A model generated the notes under the pieces. The model saw only the letters and a list, made by a program, of their open reading frames with translations. It was not told where the DNA came from and ran no database searches. Both the position numbers and the translations under genes were made by a program. Source: a virus. From it: 31,309 bases of DNA. Positions 13,000-26,715 of this stretch are shown here, in pieces (the stretch's first letter is position 1; the number at the start of each line of letters is the position of its first letter). The stretch lies in IMG/VR virus record IMGVR_UViG_3300043470_002871, positions 1 to 31,309 of that record, one strand, 5' to 3'.

Positions 13000-13800
13000 A
13001 TGGATACTCGAATAGACTTCAACACAGCCAAAAAGTTTGATCAGCTTGAATTGATTGATTGGAAAACAAAATACGGAGATTTTCAATTCTATATCCGTAA
13101 AGGATTGAATGAAATCAAATATAACGTTGGTACAAATGTTTCAAAAAGCCCAAAAAGTGGAGAATACATTAAGCCGTTAACCTCTTCTGCATATGGACCT
13201 GAAATGGACGTAAATGGAGTATTTAATCAAGAGGATACTTGGTTAGATATAGGTGGACATATTGGATTATTTGCAATTCGCATGGCTAGACAATTTCCTA
13301 GAATTAAGGAAGTTATTTCATATGAGGCTCTTCCACACAATGCTTCTTTTGCTATTGAAAATATCAAAGTAAATGGTGTTGAATCAAACTGTTCAATTGT
13401 ACAAAAAGCAATTGTTCCAGGAGAAGAAGAATCAATTGACTTCTTTATTTCAAACGATTCAGGAAAGCACTCAATTCTTCCAATTAGAGGTCGTGAGATC
13501 TTACATGTTCCAGCAATCAATATCAATGATGCAATTAATGAACATGGTGCAACTGCTATCAAAATGGACGTTGAAGGTGCAGAATACGAATTAATCAAAG
13601 CTGTGACTGATTGGTCAAAAGTAAGAGTCATTATTATTGAATATCACTTTATGTATAAACCATTAAAGACAAATCGTGTTCAAAAATTCCAAGAGATCAC
13701 CTCTATTCTTGAACAAAACTTTGATGTTGTTCGTAAAATTGAAGCAGTAGAATATGGTAAAAACTTTATTACTCATATTGTTGCTTTGAAAAACGATTAA
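13000..13800 (+). CDS. FkbM-family SAM-dependent methyltransferase
   Basis: 266 residues. Motif I for S-adenosylmethionine is DTWLDIGGHIGLF (residues 79-91). The acidic ribose-binding position follows in ISYEALP (107-112), and the family signature IKMDVEGAEYELIK lies at 187-200. FkbM enzymes O-methylate sugars and small molecules, and homologues occur in T4-like marine phages. The substrate could be a glycan on the virion, the host surface or a modified nucleotide. It lies between the small basic protein and a glycosyltransferase, so a shared glycan pathway is plausible but unproven. A strong terminator follows. Confidence 0.85.
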   Translation: MDTRIDFNTAKKFDQLELIDWKTKYGDFQFYIRKGLNEIKYNVGTNVSKSPKSGEYIKPLTSSAYGPEMDVNGVFNQEDTWLDIGGHIGLFAIRMARQFPRIKEVISYEALPHNASFAIENIKVNGVESNCSIVQKAIVPGEEESIDFFISNDSGKHSILPIRGREILHVPAININDAINEHGATAIKMDVEGAEYELIKAVTDWSKVRVIIIEYHFMYKPLKTNRVQKFQEITSILEQNFDVVRKIEAVEYGKNFITHIVALKND

Positions 13801-13893: not shown

Positions 13894-14961
13894 ATGAAAA
13901 GTTTATATGCATATTATGGATTACTCGATCTACATAACATCGATTCTCCAGGACATTCACTATATCAAATAGGATTAGTTGATTCATTGCGTGAATCATA
14001 TGGTGAAACAAAATTTGATTTCTATTCATACTACCCAGAGGAGATAATTAAGGCTGCTAAACTAGAGGCATTTCCATCAACTGAACTTGGCAAGCTTTTT
14101 TATAAATATCGAACTAATTTATTTGATCAGCCAATCCATAATATTGATGAGCTTTTAATTAAAATCAAAGCAAAGGAATATAATAAATTATTTCTAAAGG
14201 CACGTTTTAGAAACCTGTCAAGTCTTTCTAAGAAATGGAAAGATGCTAGAGAATTTGAAGACATTATCACTACTGCATTTAATGCAGGATATTCAAAGAA
14301 TGAAATTATTATTCTAGATACTGATCTTTCTTTATCTGAAAGATTTCTTTCAAATTATGGAGCAATGATTACCGTTATTGTTCCTTCTATCCATATTCCA
14401 GGGGTATCTAATACATTTTTAAAAGAATGTGTTGATCTACATACTACTCAACGTAAACTTGGCATGGGAAGCGTTTTTTACGGAAATATTGATACTTCTA
14501 AATATAAAAGCGGAAACTCTAAAAGTACAATTTTACCTGATGTTTTAAGTTGGGTAAATAGCTTTCATAATATTAAAGGCACATATGATCCATTCTATTT
14601 AATTTGTAAAGAGAATGATTTTAAAGATTTTTCAAATGTTAAAGAGAATACTCATCATATAGAGAGAAATAATCGACCTAAGATTTGGGAAACTCTTGAG
14701 AATTCTCGTATTATGTTAAACATAACTAAGGATAAGTATGACAATACTAAATTTATTCCAGCTAGAATATTTGAGGCCATGGTTTTTGGAATGATCCCAA
14801 TATCATATAAATTTGATTTTTTATGCAAAGCTTTTTCATTTAATAATGTAACTGAGCTTATTGAAATTTATCTCTATTTGTCTGATTGCACAGAAGATGA
14901 TCTAAAACAAGCATATCTTCATTTTGTTAATAGTTACCTATCTCATATCAATCATAAGTAA
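13894..14961 (+). CDS. GT-B glycosyltransferase resembling T4 beta-glucosyltransferase
   Basis: 355 residues. The C-terminal nucleotide-sugar region reads ITKDKYDNTKFIPARIFEAM (277-296), then GMIPISYKFD. This matches the layout of T4 beta-glucosyltransferase, where a DKxYNDNFITLRxWETM stretch precedes the buried UDP-binding Glu. Upstream, GSVFYGNIDTSKYKSGN (residues 192-208) fits the first strand and sugar-binding loop of the second Rossmann domain. In T4 the enzyme glucosylates hydroxymethylcytosine in DNA. The thymidylate synthase in this window keeps the dUMP-type Asn, so any modified base must be made elsewhere, and a virion or host-glycan target is also possible. Standalone between two late-type units. 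Confidence 0.55.
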   Translation: MKSLYAYYGLLDLHNIDSPGHSLYQIGLVDSLRESYGETKFDFYSYYPEEIIKAAKLEAFPSTELGKLFYKYRTNLFDQPIHNIDELLIKIKAKEYNKLFLKARFRNLSSLSKKWKDAREFEDIITTAFNAGYSKNEIIILDTDLSLSERFLSNYGAMITVIVPSIHIPGVSNTFLKECVDLHTTQRKLGMGSVFYGNIDTSKYKSGNSKSTILPDVLSWVNSFHNIKGTYDPFYLICKENDFKDFSNVKENTHHIERNNRPKIWETLENSRIMLNITKDKYDNTKFIPARIFEAMVFGMIPISYKFDFLCKAFSFNNVTELIEIYLYLSDCTEDDLKQAYLHFVNSYLSHINHK

Positions 14962-14983: not shown

Positions 14984-14991
14984 TATAAATA
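14984..14991 (+). promoter_or_regulatory. Exact T4-type late promoter octamer TATAAATA
   Basis: TATAAATA ends 9 bases before the ATG at 15001, with only a 39-base gap after the glycosyltransferase gene. This is the exact T4 late -10 octamer. The very short distance to the start would give a near-leaderless message. Confidence 0.55.
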
Positions 14992-15000
14992 ATATGCTGT

Positions 15001-16278
15001 ATGAAAAAAATATTTTTGATATTAATATTATGCTATACTTATTTTATAGCAAATTCACAATGTTCTCAATATCAAGTATATGAAAGTTTCGGATCAGCTT
15101 CTGTACCTACTCAAGGTGGAACATGGTCTCAAAATTCAGTACTAACTGTAACTTCTCCTATTAAAACTGGTCTACGTGCGATTGGATTTAATGGAACTGG
15201 CGATTGGATTAGAACTCCTCAAATTGCATCTCCAGGAATATTTTCATTTTGGTATCGACGCAGTACAAATACTACTGCTTGGAGTTGTGTTATTGAAACA
15301 TCAACTAATGGTACTACTTGGGTTAGTCGAGGAACTATTTCGTCAATAACTGCAACATATCAACAATACACTTTAAATTTATCTTCACTTAATTTATCTA
15401 ATGTTTTTATTAGAGTTAGAGATACCCGTTCCTCTGGTGCACAGGAAAGATATATTGATGATATGTCATGGACATCATTAAATTCATCTCAAAATACTCT
15501 GCTTCCAATACTAGGAAATTGTACTCAATCTGTTACTTCACAATTTACACTTATCGATCAAGGAAGTTATCTTGAATCATATAATAATAATCTAAACCAA
15601 GTAGTTACTTTTACTGCTGCTGATCCTACTAGGAAATTAGAAATTAATATTAGTAGTTTAAATATTGAAACTGCATATGATTCTCTATACGTATATGATG
15701 GAGCAACTACTTCTTCACCAGTACTTGCAGCACTAAGTGGTACTCAATCAAATTTATCATACGTAACAAGTACATCAAATGGTAAATTAACAATTAGGTT
15801 CAAGACAGATGTTTCAAATATTGGGACATGGACAGGGTTTGAGGCAACTATTAACCAAGTATTAGCATTACCCGTTGAACTTTTATATTTTACTGGAGTT
15901 GATTTTACTAGTTATAATCTTTTGGAATGGGCAACTGCTTCTGAAAAAAATAGTGAATATTTCGATTTACAAAATAGCACAAATGGTACTTATTGGACAA
16001 GTCTAATTACAATGCCTTCTGCAAATAATTCAAATTCTCTATTAAAATATAAATGTACACACTATAATCCATCCCAAAGATTAAATTATTATCAGCTTAT
16101 TCAATACGACACAGACGGCGAATATAAAACATATGGACCTATTATTATTGATAATACGTATAAGATAAAAAAAGTTGTTAAATTAATTAATACTTTGGGC
16201 CAAGAAGTAGATCAAAATGCTACTGGAATTTTAATTGAAGTTTATGAAGACGGTTCAATGAAACGAATAATTAAATAA
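15001..16278 (+). CDS. Secreted adhesin-like protein with CUB-like domain and T9SS-type C-terminus
   Basis: 425 residues. A Sec signal peptide is present (MKKIFLILILCYTYFIANSQ). Residues ~25-155 look like the cleaved-adhesin/concanavalin-type domain of Bacteroidota surface proteins (YESFGSASVPTQGGTWSQ, then IGFNGTGDWIRTPQI). Residues ~172-285 are CUB-like (AYDSLYVYDGATTSSPVLAA ending in GTWTGFEATI). Next comes ALPVELLYFTG and a fibronectin-like segment (LLEWATASEKNSEYFDLQNS), common in T9SS cargo. The final residues VVKLINTLGQEV...GILIEVYEDGSMKRIIK match the type IX secretion sorting domain (LGQEV motif and basic VxEDGxxxRxIK end). T9SS is confined to Bacteroidota, so this marks the host and suggests export by the infected cell. 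Confidence 0.75.
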   Translation: MKKIFLILILCYTYFIANSQCSQYQVYESFGSASVPTQGGTWSQNSVLTVTSPIKTGLRAIGFNGTGDWIRTPQIASPGIFSFWYRRSTNTTAWSCVIETSTNGTTWVSRGTISSITATYQQYTLNLSSLNLSNVFIRVRDTRSSGAQERYIDDMSWTSLNSSQNTLLPILGNCTQSVTSQFTLIDQGSYLESYNNNLNQVVTFTAADPTRKLEINISSLNIETAYDSLYVYDGATTSSPVLAALSGTQSNLSYVTSTSNGKLTIRFKTDVSNIGTWTGFEATINQVLALPVELLYFTGVDFTSYNLLEWATASEKNSEYFDLQNSTNGTYWTSLITMPSANNSNSLLKYKCTHYNPSQRLNYYQLIQYDTDGEYKTYGPIIIDNTYKIKKVVKLINTLGQEVDQNATGILIEVYEDGSMKRIIK

Positions 16279-16294
16279 GATAAATAATAAAAAG
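16279..16294 (+). promoter_or_regulatory. Late-promoter-like box GATAAATAATAAAAAG
   Basis: TAAATAATAAAAAG starts at 16281, 22 bases before the ATG at 16303, immediately after the stop of the secreted protein gene. Confidence 0.55.
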
Positions 16295-16302
16295 TTTTTT
16301 GT

Positions 16303-18123
16303 ATGCAGGATTTTGCACTAAATGAAAATCAAATATCTCAATTTGATACTTTAAATAAATTTTTTGAAGAAAACCAATCATATTTATCTAAAATACTTAC
16401 TTTTGATAGTGTGGTAAATGAGGCACATGCATTAAAAGTAATAGAATCAAATATTCCAGAAAATTTAAGATTCGATCTTCACCTTAGCATGATCCTAAAA
16501 GAAGGGGCTACCACGCTAACTGACTATTATAAATCAATGACTGGTGGAACTAATTATATTTTAGAAGCCGCTCGAAAAATATTTCCAGAAAATCAAAAGA
16601 TTACTGAATCTATTGAAAGCTTTAGAGAATATTTAGGTTCATTACTTGTAGAACAGAGCATGGCTCTAGATGGTCGCTCAATGGGTGCGTCTGGTTTTGA
16701 TGCGGCTCTTACCGGAGGAATATTAAAGCCACGAAAAAGCAGTAGCTTTTGGACAACCTTAAAGAGTCTTTGGGATGCCGTTACTGAGGGAGGGTCAGTT
16801 ATTGGAATTATTCAATTTATAATTGATATAATTGGATTAGTTGGAGATTTTATTTTTCCAGGAGTAGGCGTAGTTGCAGATGTTTTAAATGCAATAATTT
16901 ATGCAATTAGAGGAGAATGGATGCTATGTGCAATTTCATTAATTGCTGCTGTTTTAATTGGTGGAGGTGATGCTTTAAAATTACTAAAGGGTGCTGCTCG
17001 ACCAGCTGAAAAAGTATTTATGGCAAGCGTAAAAGGAGAAAAAGCGGCAGTTGCTGAACTTGCTAAAGTTCCAGCAAAAGAGAGAGGCGGTGTTGTAAAA
17101 CTTCTTACATATATTTTTGGAAATATTGGAAGCGCTATAGGAAAAGGAATTTCACTAATTGGTAAATTCTCTGAAAGCTTTGGTAAGGTAACCAAAGTGG
17201 TTCCTGGACTAGGTAAAGGATTAAACTGGATATTTGATGGTCTTGGTAAAACTCTAAAAACGTTTGGAGAAAAAGTGACCTTATCTAGCGCTAATTTTAA
17301 ACTTGCAACAAAAGCAGCTAAAGAAACTGCTGCAGTTAGTATTGATGCTGCTGTAAAAGCTGGCGGTGACTTTGTTGTAGATGGACCATGGATAATTGTA
17401 AAAGATTCAGCTGGTAAACAAATTGGAAAATATCCAGCTAAGCAAATTGAAAAGGTTAGCGGCCAGACTATTGCTGAATTAACTTCTAAAAAAGCAGGTC
17501 AAACTGTGAGTAAAGAAGTTGCTGAAAAAGCATCAAAAAGTGCAATAAAAGCAAGCTCAAGTGGTTCACTAAGAAAAAGAATGTATGCATATTTCAAGAC
17601 AAATCCATTATTTAAGGGATCTAGTCGATTTATGAAAGATTTACCATTCTTTATAGGTAAGCAGGTTTATAAATTAATTTTTGGTAAAGAGTGGACTAGC
17701 GGTGCTGGTAGTGAATGGACTCGAGAAGAAGTTGAAGGTCATGGAAATGGTGCATTAAATGGCTGGATTAATGATAGGTTAAAAGCTGAACGTGAAAGAA
17801 CAGGTGCAACATATCTTCCATCATTAATGTTAGACTCAACCGATAAAGAAACAGTTGATAAAATTACAGAATATCAAAATCATTTTGCTAAAATGCATGG
17901 TCAGCCTACTATTATGCAAGTAGTAACTAAAAATTATGATTCAGATAAAGCGGATGATGAATTTGATGAATTCTTCAATGGCGTTAAAAAAGGAACAATT
18001 ACTCGAGGCGGATCTAAAGATATTGTTAGTCATCAAGATGCAGATCGCTCCCTAATTGGTGAAAGTCACTCTCCTCTATTAAAAACAAAAACAATATTAA
18101 GTTTTTCAGACTTTAAAAAATGA
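16303..18123 (+). CDS. Large hydrophobic putative internal virion or DNA-ejection protein
   Basis: 606 residues. Near the N-terminus, residues 30-44 read SKILTFDSVVNEAHA, which looks like a capsid-targeting peptide with an [LIV]xE site (VNE) but sits 30 residues in. Two long hydrophobic helices span ~165-225 (IIQFIIDIIGLVGDFIFPGV and WMLCAISLIAAVLIGGGDAL), resembling the pretoxin-like helical hairpin of polymorphic toxins and the internal proteins of some tailed phages. Residues 240-470 are a Lys/Ala-rich helical region with short Gly-rich hydrophobic patches. The end, TKTILSFSDFKK, repeats the aromatic motif. No enzymatic signature. A head-internal protein that enters the host membrane with the DNA is the favoured reading. 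Overlaps the next gene by ATGA. Confidence 0.6.
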   Translation: MQDFALNENQISQFDTLNKFFEENQSYLSKILTFDSVVNEAHALKVIESNIPENLRFDLHLSMILKEGATTLTDYYKSMTGGTNYILEAARKIFPENQKITESIESFREYLGSLLVEQSMALDGRSMGASGFDAALTGGILKPRKSSSFWTTLKSLWDAVTEGGSVIGIIQFIIDIIGLVGDFIFPGVGVVADVLNAIIYAIRGEWMLCAISLIAAVLIGGGDALKLLKGAARPAEKVFMASVKGEKAAVAELAKVPAKERGGVVKLLTYIFGNIGSAIGKGISLIGKFSESFGKVTKVVPGLGKGLNWIFDGLGKTLKTFGEKVTLSSANFKLATKAAKETAAVSIDAAVKAGGDFVVDGPWIIVKDSAGKQIGKYPAKQIEKVSGQTIAELTSKKAGQTVSKEVAEKASKSAIKASSSGSLRKRMYAYFKTNPLFKGSSRFMKDLPFFIGKQVYKLIFGKEWTSGAGSEWTREEVEGHGNGALNGWINDRLKAERERTGATYLPSLMLDSTDKETVDKITEYQNHFAKMHGQPTIMQVVTKNYDSDKADDEFDEFFNGVKKGTITRGGSKDIVSHQDADRSLIGESHSPLLKTKTILSFSDFKK

Positions 18124-25920: not shown

Positions 25921-25973
25921 AATTAGAAGAAGGCTTCTTAAATATATCCTATTAAAAATAAAATTTGGACATT

Positions 25974-26345
25974 ATGAATAAAGAACAAGAGGAGATATTT
26001 GATGAAGTTTATTTGGCTTATGCAGATAGTCATTGGACTCCACCATCAAACCCAAACGGAAAACTTTTAAGTGAACAATTATTTGGTGTAATCCCTATAG
26101 AGCATTCTAAAAAAAGTTTTATTAATGAAATTAAAACTAATCCTAAATTTTCTAAAAAATGGGGACTAACGATTAAAGAACGAGGGTTGAGTTTAGAAGA
26201 AAGAGAAACTCTTTTACTAGAAATCGATGATACATTTAGAACATCTACTATGCAGGAAGTAAAACTTGTATTAGATGAATATAATATCCCAACCAAACTA
26301 ATCACAATAACATACAACGATAAAACACTTGAAAGTTATGAATAA
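25974..26345 (+). CDS. Paralogous cassette protein A with SLEER/NIPTK module
   Basis: 123 residues from the ATG at 25974 (MNKEQEEIFDEVYLAYADSH). Residues 49-64 read FINEIKTNPKFSKKWG, closely like a segment of the thymidylate synthase in this window. Residues 71-123 form the module GLSLEER...LDEYNIPTKLITITYNDKTLESYE. The next gene's start lies 8 bases inside this one. Protein A and B share their first residues, module position (residue 71) and C-terminus, so they are tandem duplicates. Function unknown; the sequence reads as a host for the module rather than as a known enzyme. Confidence 0.6.
   Translation: MNKEQEEIFDEVYLAYADSHWTPPSNPNGKLLSEQLFGVIPIEHSKKSFINEIKTNPKFSKKWGLTIKERGLSLEERETLLLEIDDTFRTSTMQEVKLVLDEYNIPTKLITITYNDKTLESYE
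26184..26342 (+). repeat. SLEER/NIPTK module, copy A
   Basis: Encodes residues 71-123 of the 25974 protein. Starts GGGTTGAGTTTAGAAGAA at 26184, includes AATATCCCAACCAAAC, and runs to the stop. The corresponding module in copy B has the same reading frame and offset. Confidence 0.7.
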
Positions 26346-26349
26346 AGAA
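26286..26349 (+). repeat. Gene-end/gene-start junction repeat, copy 1
   Basis: 64 bases from ATCCCAACC through the stop of gene A and the first codons of gene B. By hand count about 59 of 64 bases match 26656-26719. The shared string ends in GAAAGTTATGARTAAAGAA, where the stop (TAA) of one gene lies 3 bases after the ATG of the next in another frame. Confidence 0.8.
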
Positions 26350-26715
26350 CAACAAGATTTATTGGATAAAGCATATGAGAATTATTCAAAGGAATATGAA
26401 AAGGATAATTCTATTGGGATGTGTCTTTTAGTTGCACGATTGGATGGTAAAAAAACCTACAGAAAACCCGACAAAGAAATGTTTGTTGGTTTATGTACTT
26501 CCGATAAAACATTCTCTGAAAAGTGGGGATTAAAGATTGAAGAACGTGAGTTGAGTTTGGAAGAGAGATATGATTGGTTTACCAAAACATATAACAAAAA
26601 TTTAACAAGAAGTACTAACCAATATGATATGGAAGATATATTGAATACCAATAACATCCCAACCAAACTAATCACAATAACCTACAACGATAAGACAATA
26701 GAAAGTTATGAGTAA
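26338..26715 (+). CDS. Paralogous cassette protein B with SLEER/NIPTK module
   Basis: 125 residues from the ATG at 26338 (MNKEQQDLLDKAYENYSKEY), 8 bases inside gene A. The earlier TTG at 26329 is part of gene A's end. Residues 49-65 read FVGLCTSDKTFSEKWGL, and 71-125 form the module ELSLEER...ILNTNNIPTKLITITYNDKTIESYE. It aligns with protein A at the same residue offsets. The insert in the middle (residues 30-45) differs, showing divergence after duplication. The stop is again followed 8 bases back by the next gene's ATG. No known function. Confidence 0.6.
   Translation: MNKEQQDLLDKAYENYSKEYEKDNSIGMCLLVARLDGKKTYRKPDKEMFVGLCTSDKTFSEKWGLKIEERELSLEERYDWFTKTYNKNLTRSTNQYDMEDILNTNNIPTKLITITYNDKTIESYE
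26548..26712 (+). repeat. SLEER/NIPTK module, copy B
   Basis: Encodes residues 71-125 of the 26338 protein. It starts GAGTTGAGTTTGGAAGAGAG and ends with the junction repeat. Its first 21 bases differ from the TS copy at 28045 at two positions. Confidence 0.7.

Follow-up and report, generated by a model that had tools for sequence, protein, structure and literature searches.

A gene of a T4-like Bacteroidota phage probably encodes a cargo protein that is made late in infection, exported through Sec and carried by the type IX secretion system (T9SS) to the surface of the infected cell, where it would display swappable binding domains. We put the probability of this reading as a whole at roughly two in three. 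The gene lies in a 31.3 kb virus record that was analysed over its full 31,309 nucleotides and is called the window below. From the domains of the protein, its signal-peptide pattern, a promoter motif, a conserved slot whose occupants are exchanged, and links of its C-terminal parts to bacterial proteins, we infer T9SS dependence, a surface location and a benefit of the cargo. The features used in the argument all lie on the plus strand.

13000-13800, plus strand: FkbM-type methyltransferase of the left border region (67-97% identity in relatives)
13894-14961, plus strand: glycosyltransferase-like gene, immediate left neighbour, conserved (PF13524, 0.0018, below cut-off)
14984-14992, plus strand: TATAAATAA at -17 to -9 relative to the ATG, putative late promoter element of T4 type (positional enrichment, conservation)
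15001-16278, plus strand: the whole gene for the putative exported cargo, 425 aa, ATG start, in the conserved slot
15001-15057, plus strand: Sec signal peptide, cleavage expected before Gln20 (hydropathy and the Bacteroidota Q-rule)
15058-15495, plus strand: N-terminal passenger domain, all-beta (provisional), residues 20-165, exchanged among relatives
15520-15843, plus strand: CUB domain, residues 174-281 (PF00431; Foldseek to CUB structures)
15868-16155, plus strand: FN3-fold domain with LPVELLYF at its start, residues 290-385 (AlphaFold2, FN3 matches)
16156-16275, plus strand: short C-terminal tail, residues 386-425, candidate variant sorting signal (homology to Flavobacteriales tails)
16303-18123, plus strand: 606-aa protein encoded directly to the right of the slot, conserved in relatives

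The gene and its domains

The open reading frame and the signal peptide described in the initial annotation are both present, the N-terminus being hydrophobic and followed by Q20. The frame is not a chance one, because full-length relatives occur in other virus contigs at 51-66% identity and dN/dS is ~0.06 (0.0072/0.112) in one closely related pair. The CUB-like domain described there is borne out by a Pfam search, in which PF00431 matches residues 174-281 with an E-value of 1.8e-7 and 31.9 bits, above the gathering cut-off of 21.4. Foldseek agrees, aligning the model of this region with the neuropilin CUB domain 4gza_H (TM 0.80 on target, 2.7 A). The AlphaFold2 model of the full-length protein is weak (pLDDT 71, pTM 0.41) and was used for the CUB region alone; its confidence is low at residues 12-60, so that the all-beta assignment of the N-terminal domain is provisional. 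The C-terminal module was modelled well (pLDDT 92) and gave FN3 matches at Z ~10-11 in a structure comparison that covered module residues 1-99 rather than the tail alone. A domain had also been called adhesin-like, a label with no model behind it. No adhesin family scores on the window protein in NCBIfam, Pfam or PHROGs, its folds being of binding type; PHROGs returned no match for the protein, and NCBIfam no match of any kind (E up to 1).

Export and the Q-rule

In Bacteroidota, a Gln directly follows signal peptides cleaved by signal peptidase I, a pattern known as the Q-rule (PMC5837995). Every one of 57 distinct N-termini in the family has Gln at residues 17-24, in most cases preceded by Ser or Thr. 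Among control ORFs that start with a hydrophobic stretch the figure is 17 of 57, and 22% would be expected from the frequency of Q. By this pattern the family members would be signal peptidase I substrates, and they appear to carry the Sec signal peptide that is one mark of T9SS type A cargo.

The Q-rule pattern argues strongly for export and against a part of the virion. A virion fibre, which had been named beforehand as the alternative that would speak against secretion, is unlikely, since none of the 57 distinct N-termini lacks a signal peptide with the Q-rule. One version of this alternative is a decoration protein on the capsid like T4 Hoc, which likewise joins a conserved C-terminal part to variable Ig-like domains and has the same general architecture (PMC10385173) as the proteins described here, with variable beta-rich domains on a constant C-terminus. 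The position of the gene downstream of a homologue of the gp23 capsid gene, often by 147-153 bp, in 43 loci of the largest backbone group (defined below) also speaks for such a role. Unlike Hoc, the proteins here have a signal peptide, needless for a virion part assembled in the cytoplasm, and a C-terminus related to bacterial export tails; moreover, the gp23 link was not seen in four of the five backbone groups in the stretches examined. We consider a Hoc-like role very improbable.

A short C-terminal tail linked to bacterial secretion

The initial annotation called the C-terminus typical of type IX sorting. By eye this is true: the two strings that it cited, LGQEV and EDGSMKRIIK, occupy residues 399-403 and 416-425 of the 425-aa protein, the 40-residue tail of which ends in LINTLGQEVDQNATGILIEVYEDGSMKRIIK. 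The curated models do not follow. In the proposed search with TIGR04183/TIGR04131-type sorting domains, neither of these models nor PF18962 scored on the window protein (E up to 1 for NCBIfam, 0.1 for Pfam), and the type B models TIGR04131 and PF13585 gave no match, so by curated models the C-terminus is neither type A nor type B. Type C C-terminal domains (CTDs) have ~100 residues (cl41395, PMC10202324). Conserved CTD motifs include the L-beta3-beta4 glycine and a C-terminal motif (PMC11285876); in the module, 50 sequences without exception have glycine at positions 111 and 120. In the tail-bearing proteins tested, the short tail falls outside every NCBIfam and Pfam model. Like type A cargo (TIGR04183 / PF18962), the window protein has a Sec signal peptide, what appears to be a conserved NxLGxEV stretch and a basic C-terminus, and its tail follows an FN3 domain of the kind that precedes type A CTDs in bacteria. 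Unlike type A CTDs, the tail lacks a YPNP start, has ~40 instead of ~75 residues and scores with neither model. We therefore describe it as a short variant tail of ~40 residues that would depend on T9SS.

Evidence for this dependence came from bacterial genomes. Of 247 Bacteroidota genomes, 105 encode the FN3 part of the module, and SprA, the T9SS translocon on which, with PorV, secretion of type A cargo depends, is present in 105/105 of these versus 85/142 of the genomes without the FN3 part (p = 4e-17). In ~40 bacterial proteins inspected, a canonical T9SS CTD nearly always follows the FN3 domain directly. Of 196 Flavobacteriales genomes searched, 64 have the short tail at E 0.05 and 53 have it at 1e-4. 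It reaches at least 37 copies per genome in genomes of 1-2 Mb; loci L164-L193 exemplify these small genomes. Alignment with hhalign scored phage against bacterial tails at 99%, and tails against canonical CTDs at 65% over just 19 columns around NxLGxEV. In the loci inspected, the bacterial tails end 0-5 residues from the C-terminus of proteins that are otherwise unrelated and mostly have a signal peptide. A SprA match is present in 52 of the 53 tail-bearing Flavobacteriales genomes versus 107 of 143 others (p = 4e-5), and canonical CTDs too are present in all 35 tail-bearing genomes tested. The SprA correlations are confounded by lineage, as most of the SprA-negative Flavobacteriales listed have ~0.6 Mb genomes.

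These exported proteins of small-genome Flavobacteriales, which have no family name, resemble the phage proteins in their homologous tail and signal peptide and differ in carrying other passengers, with no FN3 domain seen before the tail. None of the bacterial genomes sampled showed a junction of FN3 domain and short tail, and no cellular protein of exactly that build therefore stands in support; the combination may be phage-made. In streamlined Flavobacteriales, the short tail itself may be an undescribed sorting signal.

A protein exported by Sec could instead act without T9SS, remaining in the periplasm or taking another outer-membrane route, with the tail serving folding, dimerisation or anchoring. 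This explanation accounts for the failure of every curated T9SS model on the protein and for the short motif that is all the tail and canonical CTDs have in common. It sits poorly with the recurrence of the tail at the extreme C-terminal end of many exported proteins that are unrelated to one another, as expected of a sorting signal, with the presence of SprA in nearly all tail-bearing genomes, and with the FN3 domain preceding canonical CTDs in bacteria; we judge it unlikely. The context of the FN3 domain, the multi-copy tail and the co-occurrence with SprA probably point to T9SS, despite the formal failure of the models.

A late-type promoter motif

The initial annotation placed an exact TATAAATA nine bases before the ATG, and the octamer was located there, at 14984-14991. 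Its bare count in the window (7 vs 6.5 expected) shows no enrichment and was dropped as promoter evidence in favour of a positional test. Of 39 genes, 12 have the core ATAAATAA in the 60 nt upstream of them, where 1.9 are expected. None of 2000 simulations reached 12; 15 copies are on the plus (coding) strand and 1 on the minus strand. TATAAATAA recurs 5' of the slot gene in relatives L010, L012, L014 and L017, and GATAAATAA or AATAAATAA is found in that position in L024 and L025. In the window, GATAAATAA is also found at 16279-16287, before the 606-aa gene, and a protein with sigma-70 region 2 is encoded at 974-1600. The pattern appears to fit a T4-type late promoter. Of the earlier suggestion that the phage has its host export a surface protein late in infection, Sec export and late timing are thus in keeping with the signal peptide and the late-type motif, and passage through T9SS would be the further step.

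A different element, TATTTATTA, is conserved ~15-25 nt before the target ATG in gp23-linked loci (e.g. L129, L106, L133) and is perhaps the late promoter of that lineage.

A conserved slot with exchanged occupants

Using the neighbours at 16303-18123 and 13000-13800 as baits, 18 further virus contigs were recovered. In contigs that show both borders, the slot, flanked by the glycosyltransferase-like gene and the 606-aa gene, is either empty or filled by a single exported-type protein. The window, L010 and L017 have CUB-type proteins there (53-58% identity), and L014 has a partial one; the occupant is a 766-aa Ig-like protein in L015, a PPC-like protein in L012 and another type in L024 and L025. 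The slot is empty in L021, L022, L026, L027 and L029. Several independent virus contigs share this slot and its neighbours, which supports the earlier assignment of the gene to a phage. As T9SS-type proteins are normally cellular, we also weighed whether the gene is bacterial and its contig misassembled or misclassified; this synteny refutes that, a T4 gp23 capsid gene is present in 25 of 34 records checked, and the chance of such an error is negligible.

The C-terminal module is kept at 35-55% identity while the passengers change, and the opposite is seen too. The passengers of L024 and L025 are 85% identical and their modules 46%; between the window and L008, a contig with another backbone, the values are 76% for the passengers and 54% for the modules. 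The phages thus appear to exchange passengers and tails at a fixed slot by recombination. A scan of cellular contigs gave two long relatives of the passenger (39-43%) and no donor.

Several further observations concern the surroundings of the slot. The FkbM-type methyltransferase (13000-13800) is 84-97% identical in most relatives, above its immediate neighbours. Between the methyltransferase and the glycosyltransferase, several relatives have a gene of ~145 aa (SPYLLLQEIYNEHPWRVLVC...) that is absent from the window (e.g. L015:7279-7719, L024:7294-7719, L025:7294-7719) and by eye recalls an HhH-GPD DNA glycosylase. In a second phage lineage (L008:9314-14402), MoxR-like ATPase, vWA-type and GroEL genes directly follow the exported-protein gene. 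Elsewhere in the window, the ORFs at 25965-26345 and 26329-26715 adjoin and have nearly the same ends (IPTKLITITYNDKT.ESYE), making them a likely paralogous pair.

Distribution among phages

The window phage is called T4-like because L010, its 176 kb relative, carries a capsid gene of the T4 gp23 family; on this sequence relationship, we take the window to be from a T4-like phage of Bacteroidota. An IMG/VR scan with the module found 363 loci encoding it. The best 80 of the 363 were fetched and, with nine slot and related loci, make up the 89 examined, which shared neighbours divide into five backbone groups (45, 22, 12, 7 and 3 loci). All 80 fetched loci have short tails, a result that is partly built in, since the query contained the tail.

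Across 33 non-redundant gp23-linked loci, gp23 identity predicts neither the passenger (rho -0.009, p 0.84) nor the tail module (rho 0.0005). Thus, L162 and L098 have identical gp23 and passengers that are 38% alike, and L133 and L127 have identical modules and unrelated passengers. Single-linkage clustering merged most multi-domain passengers, and counts from it stop at 50 non-redundant passengers.

Among 50,697 records, the window protein matches just four huge metagenomic phages and no cultured phage, and a homologue from the gp23 group matches the same four. These phages, of 634, 636, 642 and 462 kb, carry the FN3 module, and all four also have canonical T9SS domains (PF18962/TIGR04183), with three records over the Pfam cut-off and L004 over that of TIGR04183 (32.7 bits). 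In L033 and L034, both huge phages, the gene with the canonical domain lies closely downstream of a DnaJ-like gene.

Relation to known phage cargo

Phage T9SS cargo is already known. In Cryophage, a circular 76 kb phage, an endoglucanase, a glycoside hydrolase and a PA14 protein bear type A domains, and in 2020 this variable cargo was described as a unique case (Bellas et al. 2020, PMC7468147). As in Cryophage, the genes described here are phage genes for highly variable cargo with C-terminal sorting elements; unlike in Cryophage, they belong to T4-like phages and combine a short tail, fixed slots and binding domains. BACON-domain gut phages encode T9SS-domain proteins upstream of the head section (PMC6949934). 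They share with the present phages T9SS-type proteins near structural genes, and differ in being another phage lineage, in which the T9SS proteins were reported as annotation only. Four features go beyond these precedents: the setting in T4-like phages, the slots, which stay in place in five backbone groups while their contents are hypervariable, a short tail that no model consulted recognises, and the match of this tail to the multi-copy tail of small-genome Flavobacteriales.

Proposed mechanism and implications

In the proposed mechanism, a late phage gene would make the cargo protein, which host Sec and signal peptidase I would bring to the periplasm with an N-terminal glutamine exposed. 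The C-terminal FN3 domain and short tail would then hand the cargo to the host T9SS, for display on the infected cell or delivery to its surroundings. The functional part would be the N-terminal one, in this protein the all-beta and CUB domains, with surface glycans or proteins as its most likely ligands. The preferred use is that the infected-cell surface is modified so that competing phages or fresh progeny would not be lost on it.

The T9SS-exported protein could also benefit the phage by adhesion, gluing infected cells to neighbours or particles and so leaving progeny near new hosts, or by altering gliding. Its CUB, FN3 and Ig-like binding domains would suit this use, and adhesins are among the T9SS cargo of gliding bacteria (PMC12618676). 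The lack of any adhesin-family score counts against adhesion, which in silico is indistinguishable from surface shielding; we hold it possible but on the unlikely side. Adhesion or aggregation is ranked just below shielding against progeny loss or other phages and is nearly as likely. The exchange of passengers and tails at the slot would be expected under diversifying pressure from varying surfaces or competitors, and the free swapping of passengers fits a role that would face either.

A gene kept in the same place with swapped parts suggests that surface remodelling of infected cells may be a common and fast-evolving phage strategy. We propose, tentatively and at somewhat under even odds, that the locus is a hypervariable late surface-display cassette of T4-like Bacteroidota phages, with a related form in the largest known phages, in which the constant end is an unmodelled short T9SS signal and the passenger is swapped like a tail-fibre tip. 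The idea of phage cargo is extended here to five backbone groups, most with T4-like capsid genes, and to related domains in phages of more than 630 kb, and the cargo loci appear to recombine as freely as host-range genes. If the main reading is true, remodelling of the infected-cell surface would be a main arena of conflict between phages and Bacteroidota, and a small export tag that none of the family libraries consulted contains would mark secreted proteins of phage and host alike. If the cassette proposal is also true, phages would have a general strategy for re-dressing the infected Bacteroidota cell, and the short tail would represent a new class of T9SS signal.
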